22,098 bases of DNA from a virus. Where the stretch lies: positions 1 through 22,098 of IMG/VR virus record IMGVR_UViG_3300048134_000145, one strand, 5' to 3'. Below are positions 3,012-20,352 of the stretch, one piece after another (within the stretch, counting starts at the first letter, position 1; every line of letters starts with the position of its first letter). The notes below the pieces were generated by a model. It saw nothing but the letters and a program-made list of their open reading frames with translations, ran no database searches and had not been told where the DNA came from. A program made the translations under genes and the position numbers.

Positions 3012-3035
3012 TTTTTATTCACAACCTTTTAACAA

Positions 3036-3065
3036 TATAAAAGAGACTAGCTTGAGCCAGTCTCT
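3036..3065 (-). terminator. Intrinsic terminator overlapping the end of the 123-residue gene
   Basis: On the minus strand AGAGACTGGCT pairs with AGCTAGTCTCT (up to 11 bp, one G-U), followed by TTTTAT. The stem contains the last codons and the TAG stop of the gene ending at 3047. It separates the tail genes from the lysis cassette. Confidence 0.8.
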
Positions 3066-3418
3066 AACATTTGAAGTATTTGATTAAGCTTTTCTTCAAG
3101 CTCTATATTTTTTTGTTTAAGTGCTTCCATCTCATCATTTTCTTCAATGGGTTTCGGAAAGGCTTGTTCAATATCTAGCCTTGCTGATAAATCTTCAATA
3201 GTGAGTATGTTGCCTTCTTCAAATACAAACTCAGAAGAAAAGACCGAAGGCTGCAACTTGCACCCCCCTAGCCTTGCTTCTCCTTCATCTGATTCAATTA
3301 TGTAATCATAGCCCTGTTCTGGTGCTTCATTAGGACTGCTCTTGAACAGGCTTACATTCATAAAAGCAATTTTCACTTCACTCTTTTCATCAGTGAAATA
3401 CAAATTACTAGTCTTCAT
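3047..3418 (-). CDS. Small tail-associated protein with C-terminal coiled coil, unknown function
   Basis: This 123-residue protein has a mixed beta-type N-terminal part (about residues 1-85) and a predicted coiled coil at the C-terminus (EMEALKQKNIELEEKLNQIL, about 96-117). ATG 3418 lies inside the end of the large tail gene, an 11-nt overlap, with GAGGT as a near ribosome binding site, so translation is probably coupled to it. In related phages this slot holds small proteins of the tail-fibre region or XkdW/XkdX-like proteins, but no clear match to either is seen. A role as a receptor-binding protein partner or trimerising chaperone is only a guess. The 3' end of the gene forms the stem of a terminator. 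Confidence 0.75.
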   Translation of the reverse strand: MKTSNLYFTDEKSEVKIAFMNVSLFKSSPNEAPEQGYDYIIESDEGEARLGGCKLQPSVFSSEFVFEEGNILTIEDLSARLDIEQAFPKPIEENDEMEALKQKNIELEEKLNQILQMLETGSS

Positions 3419-6400: not shown

Positions 6401-9400
6401 CAGTATATTGTTGTCCCTCCTCTAAGTTCGGCAAACCATTAGGCATACCAAAATTGTAACCCCAGACATACCCTAGGTTTCTAAATGGTTTGCCGTTGAA
6501 ATATGTTGGGAACGCATCTACAAATTCTCGACTGTTGCGTAAAAGGTTGGTGGAGCCAATCTCTACATCATCGACCTTTTGAGTAGAGATAGCGTCCAAA
6601 GCATTTTCCATTGCCTCTGACAAGGATTCAATACTGCTTCTATAGGCTCCGAAATAATTATTATAGGTTGATTTTTGACTGTCTGTGATTGTCTCTGATG
6701 TATTAATATCACTTATGTAGCCAGTAAGTGTGTTGTATGCAGAATTGTAATTAATCTTGGCATTATACAGGTTAGTTTTAGCCGAACCTGACAACTTAAG
6801 ATTAGAATAAATGCTTGTGAATCTCTTATTCATGTTGGCGAAGTCTGCCCTTACAGAGTTCAAACTACCCCCGATTGCTTTAGCTTCAGATTCAGAAATG
6901 ATTCCATCCTTGAATGATTTTGTAAGGTCTTCATTCAATCCATATGCATTTGTGTACACATCGTTAAATTGAGCTTCAATATCTTCAGGAGCAGGACTCC
7001 ATGATGTAGCTTTATTCCCTTTTTCGAGTTTTACTTTTCTAAAGATTGCTCCGTTACCTCTTGTGTTACCTGAAAAACCATTATATACCAACACGCAATC
7101 GGTGCCATCTCTGGCGACAAAAGAACTTTCAAAATACCCTGTGTTTGGGTCGATAGATACATATTTGTTGGAACCAGACGGATACTCATAAACTGAAACT
7201 CCAGTGAAGGCTCCATCGGTCACCTCCACGAATCCACTAATGATGTATTTATCACCAGCGATTAAACCATCGGTAGAATAAAATTTCTCATAATTATAAT
7301 TGTCTGATGATTCCCCAGAATTTTTTAGGGGGTTTATTCTTTCAAGTGTATTGATAGCTAAGTTAGTCCCACCAACTTCAATATCATCGACTTTTTGATT
7401 GGTAATAGCATCCCAAGCCGTTTCAATCGCATCAGATAAAAGTCCAATTTTATCTCTGTATGTAGAGTATCTGCTTGTATATGTGGACTTCTGAGTGTCC
7501 GTAACCTCTCCTGATGTAATGATAGAAGAGATGTAATCAACCAAGCTGTTGTAAGCTGAGTTGAATGAAACTTTGGCACTGTATAGGTTTGACTTAGGTG
7601 AACCAGAAAGTTTGGCATTGTTATATACATTCTGATATCTTTGGTTGATATTCTCGAAATCAGATTTAACTGTATTTAAACTATCCTCTATGGACTTAGC
7701 TTCTGAGTTAGAGATGATACCGTCTTTAAATGCATCTGTGAGGTCTGAGTTGAGGCCGAGAGCATTCTCGTTGATTGTGTTGAATTGAGCATCTATGTCT
7801 TCAGGGGCCGGTGACCAGCCTGTGGGTTTGTTACCTCTCTCAATCATAATCTCGATGAAATCCATTTTGTTTTCTCTTGAGGTCGCTGCGTTAGTACCTG
7901 CATATAACGCAATACTAGAACCAATCATATTTTCGGTCACTTCAAATGTCAGATGAGTTCTATCCTGACCTTCTGTTTTTAAAGGAACCCCAGCAAAACT
8001 CCCTACGCCAGTAGCATGAGAATATAGCAAAAAACTAGTAATTGTTGAGATTTCTTCGATGATTTCATAGTCGAATGATATTGTGTACTGACCAGCTTTA
8101 GTGGGGGTTAGAATATAATGGCTATTATGATTTCTATGTTCAATTATTTCACTATTTGGGAGCAGGTTTCTACCACCGATTTGAATATTTCCAATCTCAG
8201 TATCAGCATGTTCCTTGGCTGCTTTTTCAGCAGCAGCACTTGTTGTATCAGCATGTTCCTTAGCTGCTTTCAACTTAGCATTTACATCTGCAATACGAGC
8301 CTTTTCTTCATCCGTTACCTTACCATCGGCATAAGCTTCAGCCTTAACTCTCTCAGCATTGGCTTGAGCAAGTGCATACTTCTCAGCAGCTTCTTGAGCA
8401 GCCTGAGCTTTTGTTTCAGCATGTGACTTAGCATTTGTTTCTGCTACTGTTGCTTTAACACTACTGATATAATCATTAGCTTCTTCGAGTCGGAATGAGA
8501 GTGTAGCCAGTTTTGCTTCGTATGTGCCGAATCGAGAAATGGTTGCATTATACTCGGCCTCAGTTGCCTTACCGTTTGAGATAGCTGTATCAATATATGA
8601 TACTAGGTCAGAGTGAGCTGTGTTGAATTCGGATTTTGCGGAAGTTAAGTTATTACGAACAGTTGAAGCCTCACTAGCAACAATGAGTGAGTGATTCCTT
8701 ATCGTGTCATACTTCTGGTCTATGTCTTTCTTCTCTTTAGAGAGTTGTGCTTTGTGAGACTTAATGGCTTTAGCCTCGGCTTCTTCGATAATGCCGTCCC
8801 GGAAAGTGTTGTTGACTGTTTCCTCAAAGTCTCCGAGTGCACCAGCGAGTTCAGATAATTCTTGGTTTGTGGCTTCAATACGAGCTTCGGTATCTTCAGG
8901 AGCTTCTGTCCAAGATGTGGCTTTGTTGCCTTCCTCTAATTTTGGATAACTTAAGTGTATTTGCGTAGAACCTGATTTAGCCAGTAAGTAAGCTCTGTAT
9001 TCTCCTGTAGGGTTGGTATAATCTCCTGTGTTTATTGTAAGAACAATATGCTTAGATTCTTTAGGTTGTAAGACAGGTGTCTCATACTTCGTCTGCCAGC
9101 CATCCCTATCTGAGTATTTACTCTGGATAAGGATATAAGCGCTCTGTGGTGTATCCATATCATTGTAAGCCCAAACAGATAAGGTGTATTGTGTGTTTTC
9201 GTCTAAAGATAAGTTGAAATATCCATTACCCCAAGAGTAATCTATTGCTCTGTACGGTCTTTCATTTACAATCTTATCAACTTGATGATTTACCCACCCT
9301 GTACTGTTTTGAAGTAGGTTTCTTCCACCAACTTCAATATTATCAACAGCATTCTTAATGTCTGTATCAACAGCAGGTTTCCATTCAGAAGTCCATGAAG

Positions 9401-11224: not shown

Positions 11225-12670
11225 TTAGTAGAATCTATCTCTCCATTCTGCATTGGATTCAAAGTATCCTTGAGGTTCAATGAATACTTCTGTTCGTCCT
11301 GCATTAATAGAAAAATAGCTGGAACCAAAATCTTTTAACTCAGTCATTGGTTCATTATTAATCATGATTATTTCTTTATGTGTATCTATCTCGATTTCAT
11401 CCCCTGCTTTCACTACATAAGGAATTTGGTCTTCGGTAGAACCATTGGGCTTCCTGATTCTGAGGTAGAATACTTTGGGATTAGTTTTATCTGTGGAATT
11501 GGTATGTCTTCCTAGGTAAATGCTGGTTTGTACTACAGGTGCTTGATACAACTCCCCTGCATCAATGAACCTTGTCGTATATAAGTCATTCTTTTCGTAT
11601 GTATCCCAATCAATCATCCGCCAAGCTTTCACAATGAATTCTTGTCCTCTCCTGATGAGTCGGATATGAGTGTAGCCACTGTTGAACATGTTATGAGAGT
11701 AATCTACAATTGTTTTTCTGTTGCCATAGGCATCATAGACAGCAACAAATAATCGAGTATTCCTCTTTCCTGAAGCATCCAGTAGTCCTAGTGCAGCAAC
11801 CAGGTTCCCAGAAGTATCAAGCACATGTGTCATTGCTTTCCCTGATTTTTTACTTCGCCAATCTTCATGAACTCTTGCAGCAAAAGTTATATCAAAATCC
11901 TGCATTGTTTGACTAAGTGACCGTTTAAGCCCTGCGCCTATCCATCCAGTTTTATCGACTGGTTCAGTAGCTATCTTGAATGAATTATTATCCACTTCAA
12001 TAGAGCCACCTACTTCTCCTCCTACATAAGCATCTGGAATCTTGTCAGCTAGATAAGACCAGCCTACTGTGGTACTAAACCCAGTTGAGTAGACAGTCGG
12101 TGAAGCATCTACAGGAGTCTTGAAAGTATCCTCGGGCTCCCCAATCATGAAATAGTCTTCATCATTTTTAGATAATGCGAGCATCGTGCTGTCTTTCAAT
12201 GCTTTCATTTTGAATGTGGGATATGAATGAGCCGTACCGTTATTCAATAGAGTCATGTGGTCTTCTTCAGTTACAGTGGAATATACTTCATTAGAGTATT
12301 TGTAAGGGTCTGAGATGATACAGTTAAGCTCAAAACTTACAAATCCCTGTGTTCTTTGAGTCAGTTCAATAGTCCCTGAGAACACCACATTCCAGTACCA
12401 AACTTCACCCCCTAATCTGAACCGTACTTCTTTCTCTCGATTAAAGAACTCTACCAGTTCATTATTGATATCAAAGAAGTCTTTATTTGAATGGTTCGCA
12501 TAAATAAAAGGAATCGTGAAGTTATATCCTCTTACCTTCTTCTCTCCTCTAATGAATCCATCTCTACCTTTAACCTCTCTCGTTTCAATTTCAGTATTGA
12601 GTGAAGGTATCTTGAATCCATCTGCAATGTAGAGATTATCGTTCATTATGTTATTTATATAGAATTGCAA
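11225..12670 (-). CDS. Distal tail protein (Dit), enlarged form
   Basis: This 481-residue protein should form the ring joining the tail tube to the tip and receptor-binding proteins. The N-terminal part (about residues 15-150) fits the Sipho_tail/Dit family: KGRDGFIRGEKK, IPFIYANHS, a WYWNVVFSGTIELT strand pair and SFELNCIISDPYKYS. Typical Dits have about 250 residues. Here about 200 extra residues (about 190-400, including IGAGLKRSL, DITFAARVHEDW, YDAYGNRKTIVDY) look like an inserted beta-sandwich, as in evolved Dits with carbohydrate-binding insertions. The end (DEIEIDTHKE, FIEPQGYFESNAEWRDRFY) resembles the normal Dit C-terminal part. It lies between tape measure and Tal, as expected. The start is taken as TTG 12670 with AAGGAA about 11 nt upstream; an in-frame ATG at 12646 has no such site. 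Confidence 0.87.
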   Translation of the reverse strand: MQFYINNIMNDNLYIADGFKIPSLNTEIETREVKGRDGFIRGEKKVRGYNFTIPFIYANHSNKDFFDINNELVEFFNREKEVRFRLGGEVWYWNVVFSGTIELTQRTQGFVSFELNCIISDPYKYSNEVYSTVTEEDHMTLLNNGTAHSYPTFKMKALKDSTMLALSKNDEDYFMIGEPEDTFKTPVDASPTVYSTGFSTTVGWSYLADKIPDAYVGGEVGGSIEVDNNSFKIATEPVDKTGWIGAGLKRSLSQTMQDFDITFAARVHEDWRSKKSGKAMTHVLDTSGNLVAALGLLDASGKRNTRLFVAVYDAYGNRKTIVDYSHNMFNSGYTHIRLIRRGQEFIVKAWRMIDWDTYEKNDLYTTRFIDAGELYQAPVVQTSIYLGRHTNSTDKTNPKVFYLRIRKPNGSTEDQIPYVVKAGDEIEIDTHKEIIMINNEPMTELKDFGSSYFSINAGRTEVFIEPQGYFESNAEWRDRFY

Positions 12671-12688: not shown

Positions 12689-12722
12689 AAAAGAAGAGAT
12701 ACTAGGAGAACCTAGCATCTCT
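12689..12722 (-). terminator. Terminator-like hairpin overlapping the tape measure stop
   Basis: On the minus strand AGAGATGCTAGG pairs with CCTAGTATCTCT (12 bp, one G-U) around a TTCT loop, followed by TCTTTTA. The stop TAG of the tape measure gene lies inside the stem. The T-run is broken, so it could be a partial terminator or an mRNA-protecting hairpin ahead of Dit. Confidence 0.72.
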
Positions 12723-15700
12723 ATCAGTGTTATATTTACTTCTCTTAGTAATCTCAGGCTCCAAGTCTCTAGCCAGTTGTTTCTCATTGTAGAGGGCTAC
12801 ATAATCTTTCTCGGCTATCTTCATGAGTACTTCAAGCATCTGGTTAGTCTGCTGCATCTGAGCTTGTTGATTCTTAACAATCTCTTTCAGCTCATTGATT
12901 TCCTGGCTGCTGCCAGAACTACCTGGAGAAGGAATACTATTTGGTCTCAAGTTGCCGTCATTCTTCTGAAGTGTCTTACCAGCATAAGCCAGTAGCTTCA
13001 TGGCATCTGTCCTTCTGGCCGGGTCTGTTGGAATCACAAACTCTGGGTAGCCATCTTCAGCTAGCTGGTACATTCCAGAAGAATTAATTAGGCCTCCTGT
13101 GGCAAAACTTGCTTTCTTGAGAAGGGACATCGGGTTAATAGCAAACCTATTTCCTACACCACCACGCATGGCTTGAGTGTGAAGGTGCGGCCCAGTAGTG
13201 AAGTTACCTGTGTTACCAGTCTTACCGAGGTGATCTCCTACTTTAACCAGGTCTCCTACCTTCTTGGCGATGGAGCTCATATGCATGAACCACCAAGTCA
13301 GCTCTCCAGATTTGATTTGGATGGAGTTACCGCCACCATAGTCATTCCAGATTTTGTCCACTTTACCGTTGACTGGGGAAGCAAGTCGGTCATAGACATG
13401 TGCTGTATCTACTCCGTAGTGTTTACCACCGTTGAAGTTGATTCCACCTGTATATCTACCGAATGTCTGAGTGATAGCTCTATTCAGTATCTTACTGCCG
13501 TCTACTTGTCCACCTTCATTATCTTTGAAGATTCCAGTAATCCAATCAAGTGCATGGTCTTTAGCAAATTTAAAACCACCTTTAGCAGCTTTCTTACCGA
13601 ATCCTGCTAAGTTAGACCAGTCAGGAGCGATGTTATCTACAATCGCACTGATGACCTTGCCTGGATTCTTTATGTAGTCCCAAGTATTGGAAAGCACATC
13701 TCCGATAGTTCCAAAGAGGCCTTTCTTCTTCTTGTTTTTGCCATTCTTAGAACCAGAGCCAGCTTGTGGATTTGTACCAGTACTGAACTGTGGCAGACTA
13801 TTGATTATTTCTTCAGTCTGGCGGTTGTTGTAAATGATAGTGCCCTTAGGGGCAAAGATAGTAGCATCATTGTCGTAGAGCCCGGTCATACCATTTGGAT
13901 ATTGGACAAGCTCTCTAGTACCCTTGCCATTACCTGAGCCCCTATCACCGACTGTAGCAAATGTATCTTTAGCTATAGCTCCATTTGAGACAAGAGAGCC
14001 TCCACCTCGCTGTGTACCTGTCGAGAACCTAGGAAGCTCAACCTCACTAACAAGATTTTCAACTCCAATCTTCTTCAGCACTTTGTTCATACCTCTAATG
14101 AGACCGTTAATGACATCTTCCAGTTTGCTAATCATTGAGTTACCCATCGACTTGATACCATCGACTGCTTTACTCTTAGCATTCTTGATAGCATCTCTGA
14201 TGCGACCAGGGAGCGTTTTAGCCCCACTGACCATATCGTCCAGCTTCTCTTTAGCTTTGTCTTTCATGTCATCATAAAAACCAGTGACTTTATCCTTCAT
14301 TGCTTTAGCAGAAGCTGATACTCTGTCTTTGATACGATTGAACATTGCTATAGAGTCATCTTTTAAGTTTGTTACTTTTCTCTTCGCTCCGTCCTTCATA
14401 TCTGTGAAGAAGTTTACTACTTTGTTCTTCATACCTCTTGCAGCATCAGATACATTAGACTTGATGCGATTGAATAATGCGACTACATCATCCTTCAGTT
14501 TTGTTACTCTGTTTTTAGCAGATATGAACATGTCTTTGAAGAAACTTTTAACTCTGTTGACCATTCCAGACACAGAATCTTTCGCAAGTGTTGCCATCCT
14601 TCTTATAAGAGAGACTACCTTATCTCTCATGTACATGACTCTGAGGGTTGCGCCCTCATACATACCTTTAAAGAATCCGACTACTTTAGTCCACAATCCT
14701 TTAATGCTGCCTGAGAATATCCTGACAAGTGAGCCGACACCTTTAATGATTCTGCCGTAGAACATCAGTTGGAATAGATTCCATACGAAACTAATACCAC
14801 CTGAGAAGATGTTTTTTACACCCTCCCACACTCGGGAGAAATCGCCAGTGAAAATTCCTGTGAAAACTTTCACGAGTCCATCTATAACTTTTAGACCGCC
14901 TCGGATTAAGCCTTGGATGTTACCCCAAACCATTTCTATGACGGCAAATACGGCTGGCATAATAAACTGTATTGTAGAGAGAATTGCGCTAAAGACTGTA
15001 CTGATTATCTTACCAATGTTCGTTATCGTTGGAATAATAGTAGCCGAATTCTCTTCCCACATCGTTTTTAGTGTCTGTGCCGTCTGACTCATGAAATCCA
15101 TTACGCCCTGTAGAGCTGGCTGTATCTGAGAAGCTATAGTATCTTTAAGCTCTATCAGCTTATCTTTCAGTCCAGTTATTCTATCTCTGAAGCCAATTAA
15201 GGCAGCGATTGAGTTATCATCAATACCCAGTTCTTTGAGTATCTTTGAGCCTTCATCTTCTTCACCGCTTACAAAAAGATTCTTGACTCCTTGTCCGAAC
15301 TCCTTAATCTTCCCCCAGATTTCAGTTACTTTTTCTCCTACTCTATGTATACCTTCTCTGAAGGTGTCAGAGTTTTGATATACTGACTTAAAGGCTGCTA
15401 CGAGTAGTCCTATAACAGTCACTGCAAGGCCTACTGGCCCACCAAACCTAAGGAGTATCTTACCTAGTGTTTTGAACAAGCCACCGTTCTTGCCAAGTGC
15501 AGCAGCTAGTGGAGACAGGGCGTTCATCGTTGCTCCTGCAAGTGAAATGAATCCACCTACAGCCACCAATACAGGAGGGATAGCAGCTGCTATTCCAGCA
15601 AAGGCAAGTATCGCTACTTTAGTGCCGTCATTCAGTCCATTAAACTTGCTGACCATATCAGTCATCCATTGGATGCCATCTCTTACATATGGAATCAAGT

Positions 15701-17093
15701 ACTCACCGATGGAAAGAGCTGCTGCTTCGAGCCCCGAACTGAACTGCTCAAGGTCACCTTTGAGGTTGTCTTTCATGATTTTATGTAATTTATCTAATGA
15801 ACCATTAGCTTCTTCATTCATTTTCTTGTAGTCTTCAAGCTTGCCACCAGAAGCATCTAAAAGTGTATTCATTGAAGAAAGGTTTTCAGTACCAGCTATC
15901 ATGGCTATGTATCTATTCTTCTCAGCATCCGTAAGGCCGTCTGTCTTGGATTTAATTTCTGCAAGAATCTCATCAGAAGATTTCATTGTTCCATCAGCAT
16001 TAGCCATAGAAAGGTTCAACTCTTCAAATGCTTGTGCTGTCTGCCCTGTCGGGTTAATCATCTTAGCAAACATACTGTTCAGCTTAGTACCAGCTTCAGC
16101 ACCTTTTGTACCTTCATCTGCAAGAACACCGAGCATTGCATTGGTCTCATCTACAGTGAAGTTCATTGAGCTTAGTGTTGCCCCACTTCTTATGTATGCA
16201 TCCATCATTTCTTCTGCTGTAGTATTCGAGTTGGATTGAGTTGCTACCAGACTGTCGAGGTATCCATCCAAATCTTGTGTTTCAAGTTTAAGTGCTCCCA
16301 TTGAATCTGTTACGAGGTCAGAGGCGTTAGCCAGGTCTAGCTCAGTAGCTTCAGCAAACTTCAATACGCCACCCATAGCCTCAATCTGTTGTGCTGCATC
16401 CCAGCCCGCTAAACTCATATAAGAATGTGCATCTGCGACTTCTTTGGAAGTGAATGAAGTAGTACCGCCCCACTTCTTAGTGCTTTCCTCTATCTGCTTC
16501 ATTTCTTCATCTGTAGCATTCAGGAGCCCCTGTACTTTATCCATTGCAGATTCATAATCCATGGCAGACTTAACGCCTACAGTTCCCAATGCAACTAGTG
16601 GAGCTGTAATCCATTTAGAACCTGTCTTTCCTATATCAGTGATTTGTCCACCGATGCTAGAAAGCTTACTGCCATACTCATCCAATCCTTTAGACATTTT
16701 TGTCCACGGAGAGGTCATTATCTTATGTTGCTTCTCCATCTCTTCTAGTTCAGAAGTAATATTAGAGAGTGCTGCTTCTTCTTTGTTAAGTTTAGATGCA
16801 AGAGCTTCTGCTTCCTTACTTGCTGCACCCTTCTGCTTTACAACTTCCTTGTATGCATCCTGCTGTTCTTTAACAATAGCCTCTTGAATCTGTTGTTTCT
16901 TAGTGAGGCTTTCTACTTTCACACCAAGTTTATCTGATTCACTACCTACCCTACCGATGGCAGAGAGATTGGCAGTCATAGCTGAGTTAACCATCTTCAT
17001 TTGACGCTGTAGGCCAGTAACTGAGCTATTGAGCTTAGTCGTATTCATATCTACATCTATGACCATTCTGCCTAACGGAGTGTTATTCGCCAT
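12702..17093 (-). CDS. Tail tape measure protein with M23 peptidase domain
   Basis: This 1463-residue protein should set tail length and pass through the tube during DNA ejection. Residues about 10-145 are coiled coil. About 180-430 match the TP901-type tape measure core (SAMDKVQGLLNATDEEM, TTSFTSKEVADAHSYMSLAGWD). Hydrophobic segments lie at about 495-525, 550-570 and 685-720. Three 44-residue helical repeats fill about 818-949. Near the C-terminus is an M23/lysostaphin-like domain (about 1215-1315) with the metal-site motifs HYGVD (H-x3-D) and GPHLHTQ (H-x-H), so it probably opens peptidoglycan during entry. The tail end (about 1390-1463) is coiled coil. ATG 17093 has AAAGG about 12 nt upstream; an ATG 5 nt earlier is out of frame. 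A strong terminator lies directly upstream and another hairpin overlaps the stop. Confidence 0.95.
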   Translation of the reverse strand: MANNTPLGRMVIDVDMNTTKLNSSVTGLQRQMKMVNSAMTANLSAIGRVGSESDKLGVKVESLTKKQQIQEAIVKEQQDAYKEVVKQKGAASKEAEALASKLNKEEAALSNITSELEEMEKQHKIMTSPWTKMSKGLDEYGSKLSSIGGQITDIGKTGSKWITAPLVALGTVGVKSAMDYESAMDKVQGLLNATDEEMKQIEESTKKWGGTTSFTSKEVADAHSYMSLAGWDAAQQIEAMGGVLKFAEATELDLANASDLVTDSMGALKLETQDLDGYLDSLVATQSNSNTTAEEMMDAYIRSGATLSSMNFTVDETNAMLGVLADEGTKGAEAGTKLNSMFAKMINPTGQTAQAFEELNLSMANADGTMKSSDEILAEIKSKTDGLTDAEKNRYIAMIAGTENLSSMNTLLDASGGKLEDYKKMNEEANGSLDKLHKIMKDNLKGDLEQFSSGLEAAALSIGEYLIPYVRDGIQWMTDMVSKFNGLNDGTKVAILAFAGIAAAIPPVLVAVGGFISLAGATMNALSPLAAALGKNGGLFKTLGKILLRFGGPVGLAVTVIGLLVAAFKSVYQNSDTFREGIHRVGEKVTEIWGKIKEFGQGVKNLFVSGEEDEGSKILKELGIDDNSIAALIGFRDRITGLKDKLIELKDTIASQIQPALQGVMDFMSQTAQTLKTMWEENSATIIPTITNIGKIISTVFSAILSTIQFIMPAVFAVIEMVWGNIQGLIRGGLKVIDGLVKVFTGIFTGDFSRVWEGVKNIFSGGISFVWNLFQLMFYGRIIKGVGSLVRIFSGSIKGLWTKVVGFFKGMYEGATLRVMYMRDKVVSLIRRMATLAKDSVSGMVNRVKSFFKDMFISAKNRVTKLKDDVVALFNRIKSNVSDAARGMKNKVVNFFTDMKDGAKRKVTNLKDDSIAMFNRIKDRVSASAKAMKDKVTGFYDDMKDKAKEKLDDMVSGAKTLPGRIRDAIKNAKSKAVDGIKSMGNSMISKLEDVINGLIRGMNKVLKKIGVENLVSEVELPRFSTGTQRGGGSLVSNGAIAKDTFATVGDRGSGNGKGTRELVQYPNGMTGLYDNDATIFAPKGTIIYNNRQTEEIINSLPQFSTGTNPQAGSGSKNGKNKKKKGLFGTIGDVLSNTWDYIKNPGKVISAIVDNIAPDWSNLAGFGKKAAKGGFKFAKDHALDWITGIFKDNEGGQVDGSKILNRAITQTFGRYTGGINFNGGKHYGVDTAHVYDRLASPVNGKVDKIWNDYGGGNSIQIKSGELTWWFMHMSSIAKKVGDLVKVGDHLGKTGNTGNFTTGPHLHTQAMRGGVGNRFAINPMSLLKKASFATGGLINSSGMYQLAEDGYPEFVIPTDPARRTDAMKLLAYAGKTLQKNDGNLRPNSIPSPGSSGSSQEINELKEIVKNQQAQMQQTNQMLEVLMKIAEKDYVALYNEKQLARDLEPEITKRSKYNTDRDARFS
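14247..14642 (-). repeat. Three tandem 44-residue repeats in the tape measure gene
   Basis: Units of 132 nt start at 14642, 14510 and 14378, all in frame. The consensus runs RVT-LKDDVV-LFNRIK-- V-- A--GMKNKV--FF-DMK--AK. The first copy is the most diverged (VMYMRDKVVSLIRRM). A decayed fourth copy follows. Repeat copy number in a tape measure can directly change tail length. Confidence 0.85.
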
Positions 17094-17120
17094 TCATATT
17101 CATCCTTTCAAATTTTATAC

Positions 17121-17169
17121 AAAAAAATGGCTGGAGATAGTTGAGTGTTAATAACTTATCTCCAGCCAT
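17121..17169 (-). terminator. Strong intrinsic terminator just upstream of the tape measure gene
   Basis: On the minus strand a perfect 13-bp stem (ATGGCTGGAGATA paired with TATCTCCAGCCAT, 17157-17169 and 17127-17139), extendable past one bulge by AGTT/AACT, is followed directly by seven T residues. It lies 28 nt before the tape measure ATG and after the chaperone genes. No promoter is evident between it and the tape measure, so tape measure mRNA probably depends on read-through. Confidence 0.87.
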
Positions 17170-17297
17170 ATGGTCTGTTTATTTAATTGTTCCTCTGTTG
17201 CTATATTAGTAGCTGTTTTAGACTGAGTATATATTGAGAAAGTACTAGCCCTGAGACTAATCACACTCTCAATATATAAGCCCCCGGGAGGGAGCTT
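17170..17297 (-). other. Structured non-coding region between tail chaperone and tape measure
   Basis: No gene fits here. On the minus strand an 8-bp GC-rich hairpin overlaps the gpT stop (AAGCTCCC with GGGGGCTT, 17278-17297). Directly after it comes a 12-bp perfect inverted repeat (17228-17239 and 17267-17278, TATATATTGAGA with TCTCAATATATA) with a 27-nt loop holding a smaller hairpin. About 58 nt of AT-rich sequence then lead to the terminator at 17121-17169. Together this makes about 200 nt of largely paired RNA in an otherwise tightly packed operon. Confidence 0.65.
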
Positions 17298-17520
17298 ACA
17301 GTAAGTCAAACGCTGCTTCAGCGCTGACTTGATTCTTCTCTTGATGCTTCTGATAGATACGCATCTCAGAGTCCATTAAAGCAAATATGTCACATTCCAT
17401 AAGCTCTTGGAAGCTCATATGCTTACCATCTTCTCTTTCCCTCATATAATCTATGAAGTTCTGAAGATATTCTACTTGCTTATCAGGTGACAAGTCTTCT
17501 TCGCTTATTTCTGACTCGCT
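17296..17520 (-). CDS. Frameshift-encoded C-terminal part of the tail assembly chaperone (gpT-like)
   Basis: This frame has no start of its own with a ribosome binding site. It continues the upstream chaperone frame after a -1 slip at 17520-17526, giving a fusion of 105 upstream plus 74 new residues, 179 in total (gpGT-like). The new part is acidic and helical (SEISEEDLSPDKQVEYL, FIDYMREREDGKH, AEAAFDLL). In lambda and many siphophages, a minor frameshifted fusion binds both the tape measure and the major tail protein during tail assembly. The position between the major tail protein and the tape measure fits. A TTG at 17493 could be read as a start, but it lacks a good ribosome binding site. 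Confidence 0.85.
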   Translation of the reverse strand, partial: SESEISEEDLSPDKQVEYLQNFIDYMREREDGKHMSFQELMECDIFALMDSEMRIYQKHQEKNQVSAEAAFDLL

Positions 17521-17834
17521 AAAAAAGCTTGCTTCTTCAAACTTTCTACATCACGAGTCATAACCAGCATCAGTTGATTCTGAAGCTCTTCCATAAAGTC
17601 TGCTGCATCAATACCATCCCACATATCGTCTTTTGTGAATTCACCGTGATAGATATCTTTTGCAAGGAAGTCCAGTACTTCATCAAGAACAGCCATTTCA
17701 TCTTCAGCATTTTCCATCTTCTTAAAGAGGTTCTGAGCCTTGATGATGTTTCGTGCATTCGCAAATTTAGAGTAGAAAGTTTTATCTTCACCTTCGAGGA
17801 ATAGTGTAATCTTTCGTGTTACTGTTTTAGCCAT
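17505..17834 (-). CDS. Tail assembly chaperone (gpG-like)
   Basis: This 109-residue protein begins MAKTVTRKITLFLEGEDKTFYS, a beta-type opening usual in this chaperone family, followed by helices (ARNIIKAQNLFKKMENAEDEM, VLDEVLDFLAKDIYHGEFTKDDMWDG). It should coat the tape measure during tail assembly and be lost later. The last codons contain T_TTT_TTA, after which a fraction of ribosomes should shift into the gpT-like frame. ATG 17834 has AAAGGAGA 10 nt upstream, and this leader shares 16 nt with that of the holin gene. Confidence 0.88.
   Translation of the reverse strand: MAKTVTRKITLFLEGEDKTFYSKFANARNIIKAQNLFKKMENAEDEMAVLDEVLDFLAKDIYHGEFTKDDMWDGIDAADFMEELQNQLMLVMTRDVESLKKQAFLASQK
17520..17526 (-). 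promoter_or_regulatory. Programmed -1 ribosomal frameshift site T_TTT_TTA
   Basis: The heptamer TTTTTTA sits in the chaperone frame exactly as T-TTT-TTA (codons 104 and 105), five codons before the stop. A -1 slip keeps all pairs except the wobble base of the second tRNA and opens the downstream frame to 17296. A 7-bp stem with two G-U pairs (GCGAGTC with GACTTGT) begins right after the heptamer; its spacing is shorter than usual, so its role is doubtful. Confidence 0.88.
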
Positions 17835-17889
17835 AATATGTATTTCTCCTTTGAAATTTAGTAGTTTAAATAATTAGTCGATAATATGA

Positions 17890-17925
17890 TAAATAAAGCA
17901 GCCTGCATGATGAGTACAGGCCGCT
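17890..17925 (-). terminator. Terminator-like hairpin after the major tail protein
   Basis: On the minus strand AGCGGCCTG pairs with CAGGCTGCT (9 bp, one G-U) around an 11-nt loop, followed by TTATTTATC. It starts 27 nt after the major tail protein stop. The weak T-run suggests partial termination or 3'-end protection of an abundant mRNA. Confidence 0.62.
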
Positions 17926-17952
17926 GGTTAATCTGTATGATTCTCGTTAAGC

Positions 17953-18543
17953 CTATGCAACAGGTGTAGCAGTAGAGTCCATGAAGACTGCATTGGAGAG
18001 AACAGAGAAGTCGAAGTCTTCGTCTGAACCATTCTTAGAAATCTTGCGCTCATTGTCGTAGATTCTATCCATTGCTTCACCTTCAAGAGTGATAGAACCG
18101 AAGGAAACAGAGTCCTCTTTAGTTTGACCAGACTCTTCAGCTGGTTGAACCAGGGCTTTTGTCAGGCCGATAAACTTGGAAGTACCATCTTCTTTAGTGA
18201 ATTCAGCGATGACCCCAATGTATGGAGATACTTGCTGAGAGTTAGAGTATGTAAGTCCATCTTCTCTACGAACTTCTCCCAGAATTTCTTCTTTGAGCTC
18301 TTCAGGAAGGGAGTGGAATTCCATATTGAAGGCTGCACCTGGGCGAGCCTGAGCAGTTTGTACAGCACGGTTTCCAGCGTAGGCCTTCTCAATAGAAGAG
18401 TTAGGTGTCACACCGAAAGATTTGATAGAATCAATCTCGTGAATCTCACCGTAGGAAACTCCATCTTTCGTATCTTCATTCTGAACTGCCATGTAAACCT
18501 TCTTCAGACCAGTAATAGCCTGATAATCGTTAGTGTATGCCAT
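17953..18543 (-). CDS. Major tail protein (tail tube), phi13-type
   Basis: This 196-residue protein should polymerise into the tail tube. It begins MAYTNDYQAITGLKKVYMAVQ and has the features of the phi13-type major tail protein family: an opening GLKKVYMA strand, a GEIHEIDSIKSF-VTPNSS segment where mock tail parameters are set, AGNRAVQTAQ, a middle segment on EFHSLPEELKEEILG, and a SFGSITLEGEAM strand near the end. ATG 18543 is chosen because AAGGAG lies 10 nt upstream; a GTG two codons earlier is only 4 nt from that site. It is followed by a hairpin and then the chaperone genes, the usual order. Confidence 0.9.
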   Translation of the reverse strand: MAYTNDYQAITGLKKVYMAVQNEDTKDGVSYGEIHEIDSIKSFGVTPNSSIEKAYAGNRAVQTAQARPGAAFNMEFHSLPEELKEEILGEVRREDGLTYSNSQQVSPYIGVIAEFTKEDGTSKFIGLTKALVQPAEESGQTKEDSVSFGSITLEGEAMDRIYDNERKISKNGSDEDFDFSVLSNAVFMDSTATPVA

Positions 18544-18564
18544 TTGCACATTTCTCCTTAAAAT

Positions 18565-20213: not shown

Positions 20214-20250
20214 GCATTCTCAACTCCTTGTATGTATAAGTAATAAATAT

Positions 20251-20274
20251 GCTTGAGAGACGAATCCCTCAAGC
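20251..20274 (-). terminator. Terminator-like hairpin between capsid gene and small head gene
   Basis: On the minus strand GCTTGAGGGA pairs with TCTCTCAAGC (10 bp, one G-U) around a TTCG loop. The following ATATTTATTA is T-rich but broken, so strong termination is doubtful. The 139-nt gap 20214-20352 also holds a CTAGTA/TACTAG hairpin just after the capsid stop and no gene. Confidence 0.6.
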
Positions 20275-20352
20275 TAATATGTTCATAGCACTCAATTAAT
20301 GAGCAGGAATACTATGAATAATGCTGCTCTCATTCAGCTAGTATGTACTAGA

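Follow-up and report, generated by a model that had tools for sequence, protein, structure and literature searches.

The window analyzed in this study is the whole 22,098-base virus record IMGVR_UViG_3300048134_000145, from a virus of bacteria whose late genes lie on the minus strand and encode the major capsid protein, head-tail proteins, the major tail protein (MTP), the chaperone proteins gpG and gpT, the tape measure protein (TMP) and the distal tail protein; the features described below are on that strand unless stated otherwise. The MTP gene (17953-18549; phrog_88, 6.3e-37) is followed by the gene for gpG (17505-17834, 109 amino acids; phrog_187, 1.4e-18), and between the MTP and chaperone genes there is a terminator-like hairpin of -17.0 kcal/mol at 17897-17925, where the closest relative found, a prophage of Salinicoccus halitifaciens, also has one. 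The annotation of phrog_187 in PHROGs is head-tail adaptor; our assignment of gpG as a putative tail assembly chaperone rests on its position and on the frameshift layout, in which gpG is joined to the gpT frame through a -1 slippery site (T TTT TTA, 17526-17520) and this frame is read through. Within the frameshifted chaperone gpGT, the gpT portion occupies 17296-17493 with its TAA stop at 17298-17296, and its C-terminus, AFDLL, matches AFDLI in the Salinicoccus prophage. The TMP gene (12702-17093, 1463 amino acids; phrog_167, 8.3e-185) starts at 17093 behind the ribosome binding site GAAAGGAT at 17102-17109. The gap between gpGT and TMP is 202 nt long and is read here on the minus strand, on which the operon is encoded.

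Three stems follow one another in this gap, and each of them had been named in a preliminary description of the DNA, which listed a GC hairpin over the gpT stop, a 12-bp perfect inverted repeat with a structured 27-nt loop, and a 13-bp terminator with seven T before the TMP ribosome binding site. Stem 1 (17278-17297) is a GC-rich 8-bp hairpin of -11.9 kcal/mol over the gpT stop, with a weak U-tract (TATATATT). Stem 2 (17228-17278; -20.6 kcal/mol) abuts stem 1 and consists of the perfect inverted repeat, with arms TATATATTGAGA and TCTCAATATATA at 17278-17267 and 17239-17228, and an inner helix; its 27-nt loop itself folds further, and the fold amounts to a nearly continuous duplex of ~22 bp. 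An unstructured linker (17170-17227; z -0.3) leads to the last stem (17127-17169), which has 13 bp, about -21.4 to -21.6 kcal/mol and arms at 17169-17157 and 17139-17127, and directly after it runs the U-tract TTTTTTT (17121-17127), the first T of which is paired. None of 300 shuffles was as stable as the fold of 17094-17297 (z -5.1); measured against shuffles, stems 1 and 2 together reached z -5.6 and the terminator z -6.8, and the plus strand over the same stretch folds less stably (z -2.3). Perfect 12-bp inverted repeats with a loop of at most 40 nt occur only twice on the minus strand of the whole window, both times in the gap, and 20 shuffled windows held two in total. Stems 1 and 2, genuine as structures, are known from this phage alone. 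A blastn search with 1.2 kb against phages gave no match. A mobile palindrome was rejected: the pattern of stem 2 had no match in viral contigs, and among the short DNA matches that 82 of 157 genomes of the order yielded (E of at most 0.1), none covered stems 1 and 2 together.

The last stem carries the sequence features that define an intrinsic (Rho-independent) terminator, namely a stable, G+C-bearing stem-loop in the transcribed strand and a run of U directly after it, and we treat it as a predicted terminator of that class; a simple terminator scan omits it because its loop is longer than the limit of the scan. Only 27 nt separate the end of its U-tract from the TMP start, which leaves no room for a promoter, so that the TMP gene would be reached only via read-through. 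The only minus-strand promoter-like site that our promoter scan found near the gap, at 17493-17464, lies upstream of it. The preliminary description had compared the layout to a leader attenuator. In the sense of a switch this comparison finds no support, for there is no antiterminator pairing that competes with the terminator: the best upstream partners of its arms (-11.7 and -11.3 kcal/mol) are no better than the shuffled means (-11.9 and -12.1) and are far weaker than the terminator itself (-21.6). The same description had recognized no ligand-binding class, and with this our Rfam search agrees. Over the whole window there was no match at the gathering score, and the eight matches with E values up to 10 at 16900-18000 were all far below their gathering scores; a known RNA family was therefore rejected for the gap. 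The idea of a conserved cis-acting RNA finds no support, since neither the one close relative nor the scan of viral contigs shows stems 1 and 2; such an RNA might still act in this one phage. Masking of the TMP ribosome binding site was also set aside, as pairing over the site is merely moderate (about 0.4-0.7 per base). An open frame of 75 codons that ends at -54 is unlike the ends of gpT and was taken as chance. An open reading frame for 28 amino acids (17169-17083), considered as a leader peptide, crosses the terminator stem and overlaps the TMP start; there is no fitting ribosome site in the sequence before it, and the stretch is not conserved in the Salinicoccus prophage (L013).

In the collections searched, no phage was closer to the window than this prophage (L013, L093 and L094 are the same locus), whose TMP is 64% identical over the whole protein and 71% over the first 600 residues; identity to the TMP of Staphylococcus aureus phi13/PVL-type phages is ~30%. 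The gap of the prophage is shorter, is without stems 1 and 2, and holds a different strong terminator (-20.0 kcal/mol, U-tract at -58) directly after the gpT stop, which is the position of stem 1 in the window. Direct covariation analysis of the window's gap is impossible because the sole close relative found differs there. In the gap terminators of S. aureus phages (four sequences), all 32 of 32 cells were paired and three of eight pairs had changed on both sides, a covariation score reached by 2 of 500 shuffles. Three other small groups had 2/15, 2/12 and 2/16 pairs changed on both sides, which is slight covariation and in the first group does not exceed that of shuffles. All of these sets are very small. 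A misaligned alignment (A6) did not enter the count, A11 omits L040, whose alignment in A10 was faulty, and L053 was excluded for a stem shifted by one base.

We surveyed TMP junctions in related phages with a rule that calls a terminator around the TMP start where a hairpin of -9 kcal/mol or below, at least 60% paired, is accompanied by six T in eight positions. The first set comprised 128 loci in 40 clusters, joined by single linkage where the 260 nt upstream of TMP were 80% identical, which does not make the clusters independent by descent; left out were 17 named loci (cut, duplicate, or with the TMP start not found or doubtful) and those with fewer than 265 nt upstream. In 23 of the 40 clusters a terminator ended no more than 100 nt upstream of TMP; antisense terminators did so in 5/40, and each of the seven 100-nt bins between the TMP start and +700 had 0/40. 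Over the stretch from -260 to 0, a terminator was present in 28/40 clusters, where 2.1 were expected from shuffles. As called, the U-tract followed the gpT stop in 19/40. In the other four of the 23 it lay before or at the stop, and three of these calls (L044, L032, L086) fall deep within the gpT codons, where coding alone might have produced them. Hairpins with a T-run in or near the end of the gpT codons, ~70-95 nt before TMP, were seen in the same three loci and in L181 and L190; these five may be either by-products of coding or in-gene terminators. In the remaining 17/40 clusters no terminator was called this close to TMP, and it is therefore not obligatory. One cluster accounts for 78 loci, and in it 25 of 32 distinct junctions had a call between -100 and 0, some of them inside gpT codons.

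The 19 gap terminators fall by eye into about eleven stem types, and the stem sequence differs between lineages. In six loci (L005, L062, L120, L132, L134, L135) the 5' arm is formed by the last gpT codons and the 3' arm lies after the stop. A second peak is found at the MTP/gpG junction (12/36 in the bin from -700 to -600), and with respect to called gene starts a terminator precedes TMP in 23/40, the next upstream gene (gpG) in 14/31 and genes further upstream in 8/37. For a broad sample of Bacillota we took matches to PF10145, the TMP family, in genomes of the class and the phylum (L151-L242). Seven of these 92 loci were dropped by script and 14 by hand (doubtful start or duplicate), which left 71, and the 60 clusters without a member of the first set were counted. 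Here a terminator was called in the last 100 nt in 10/60, where shuffles gave an expectation of 2.2, and antisense calls numbered 7/60. The feature is thus strong in the phages related to the window and weak or absent in many others.

Other structured elements were noted elsewhere in the window. A noncoding element after the major capsid gene (20282-20329), with the core CAGCATTATTCATAGT, is kept in the Salinicoccus prophage at L094:935-981, and a pattern scan of viral contigs returned only the Salinicoccus contig. Its two helices either form an H-type pseudoknot or are mutually exclusive; 36/36 cells are paired and 3/18 pairs have changed on both sides, in a comparison of two sequences only in which 69/500 shuffles scored as high. 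A weak whole-length match to the Rfam family sRNA71 of Staphylococcus at 20243-20319 (22.1 bits against a gathering score of 50, E 0.2-0.4) is probably due to chance. Behind the major capsid gene lies an additional terminator-like hairpin (20251-20274) that has no counterpart in the Salinicoccus prophage. More such hairpins occur in the downstream late region (899-936, 2019-2046 and 3035-3066), where one hairpin has -20.5 kcal/mol and a T-run from 906.

We propose that the gap probably holds a constitutive, leaky intrinsic terminator, by which expression of TMP and the genes after it is kept below that of the chaperone. Some late transcripts would end there, once the chaperone gene has been read, and TMP and the genes behind it would be transcribed only by polymerases that run through; together with the hairpin at 17925-17897, it may form a staircase in which expression is high for the tail tube, lower for the chaperone and lowest for TMP. 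We infer that termination takes place in vivo, is leaky and serves protein dosage. The suggestion in the preliminary description that this region might keep tape measure output low fits our preferred explanation, given that relatives repeatedly carry a terminator at the same place.

In phage T7 a partial terminator after the abundant major capsid gene lowers the genes that follow, but it acts on the phage's own RNA polymerase and concerns other genes than those of the window. The Listeria phage CKA15, which is P100-like, is a myophage with a sheathed tail. On its transcript map, intrinsic termination sites are reported after the tail tube and the tail assembly chaperone genes, and the chaperone unit also has a reported transcription start (PMC12282133); the window resembles CKA15 in having terminators, in this case predicted, after the same two genes. 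For Bacillus phage SPP1, the accessible portions of the report describe late gene clusters as delimited by stem-loops; among the predicted terminators, one lies behind the major capsid gene (8775-8815) and another separates the tail tube gene from that of the chaperone (11255-11304) (PMC6316719). SPP1 differs from the window in that its chaperone and TMP genes are ~12 nt apart with no terminator listed in the gap in those portions, and a predicted terminator (12009-12049) lies inside its frameshifted chaperone 17.5* (PMC6316719). The portions of PMC5601072 accessible to us do not mention a terminator. Terminators of this kind are already known from single cases (CKA15, SPP1), and in the literature searched, in part through excerpts, there was no report of their recurrence at the chaperone/TMP junction.

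Stable 3' stems protect bacterial mRNA, and it may be asked whether the terminator mainly makes and protects a stable 3' end of the abundant tail tube and chaperone message, low TMP being a side effect. Stem 1, which is without a good U-tract, would fit such a role. However, a stem without a U-tract would suffice for protection, and the U-tract is kept in 23/40 lineages, a count made with a rule that demanded a U-tract and left stems without one uncounted; we consider this account unlikely. A separate matter is how the window came to differ from its relatives. It is possible, if doubtful, that stem 1 is what remains, at the usual place, of an ancestral terminator that decayed and was replaced by the present one after an insertion brought in stem 2. 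Stem 1 sits where the relative has its terminator, and the gap of 202 nt exceeds the 30-96 nt of the other 18 phages with a U-tract after the gpT stop, but both stems are still intact. Such turnover is a history and can be compatible with the leaky terminator.

The upstream stems invite explanations of their own. The three serial stems, the stability of the gap as a whole (z -5.1) and the fact that the upstream two are far beyond chance would suit a regulated leader, in which formation of the terminator would depend on stems 1 and 2 or on a bound protein. Nevertheless, the terminator arms have no competing pairing, no Rfam family matches, and the Salinicoccus prophage has a terminator without stems 1 and 2, all of which makes this highly unlikely. 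The ~22-bp duplex of stem 2 also recalls an RNase III-type processing site that would cut the late message between chaperone and TMP; we give this a very slim chance, as stem 2 is found in this phage only and the cut would leave the terminator unexplained. With regard to the leaky terminator itself, a stem of such strength might stop nearly all transcripts unless read-through is helped. The put RNAs of phage HK022 are two adjacent stem-loops in nascent RNA ahead of a terminator, and by analogy stems 1 and 2 could be a put-like cis-acting RNA that passes a set fraction of polymerases through the terminator 58 nt downstream. The likeness consists of two adjacent stems alone, and the relative manages without them; we regard this as very improbable. 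If it were true, one gap would hold both the brake and its release and would set the chaperone-to-tape-measure ratio.

That tailed phages produce many tube subunits but few rulers from one late transcript is usually credited to translation. The structured RNA formed by stems 1 and 2 in a single phage is less important in this respect than the terminator that recurs. The recurrence of a terminator at this junction with unrelated stem sequences suggests that transcription termination is a second, evolvable control of tail stoichiometry, for which some lineages appear to build the terminator from the last codons of the chaperone gene itself. Termination at the junction would be directly testable in phages that are already in laboratories.
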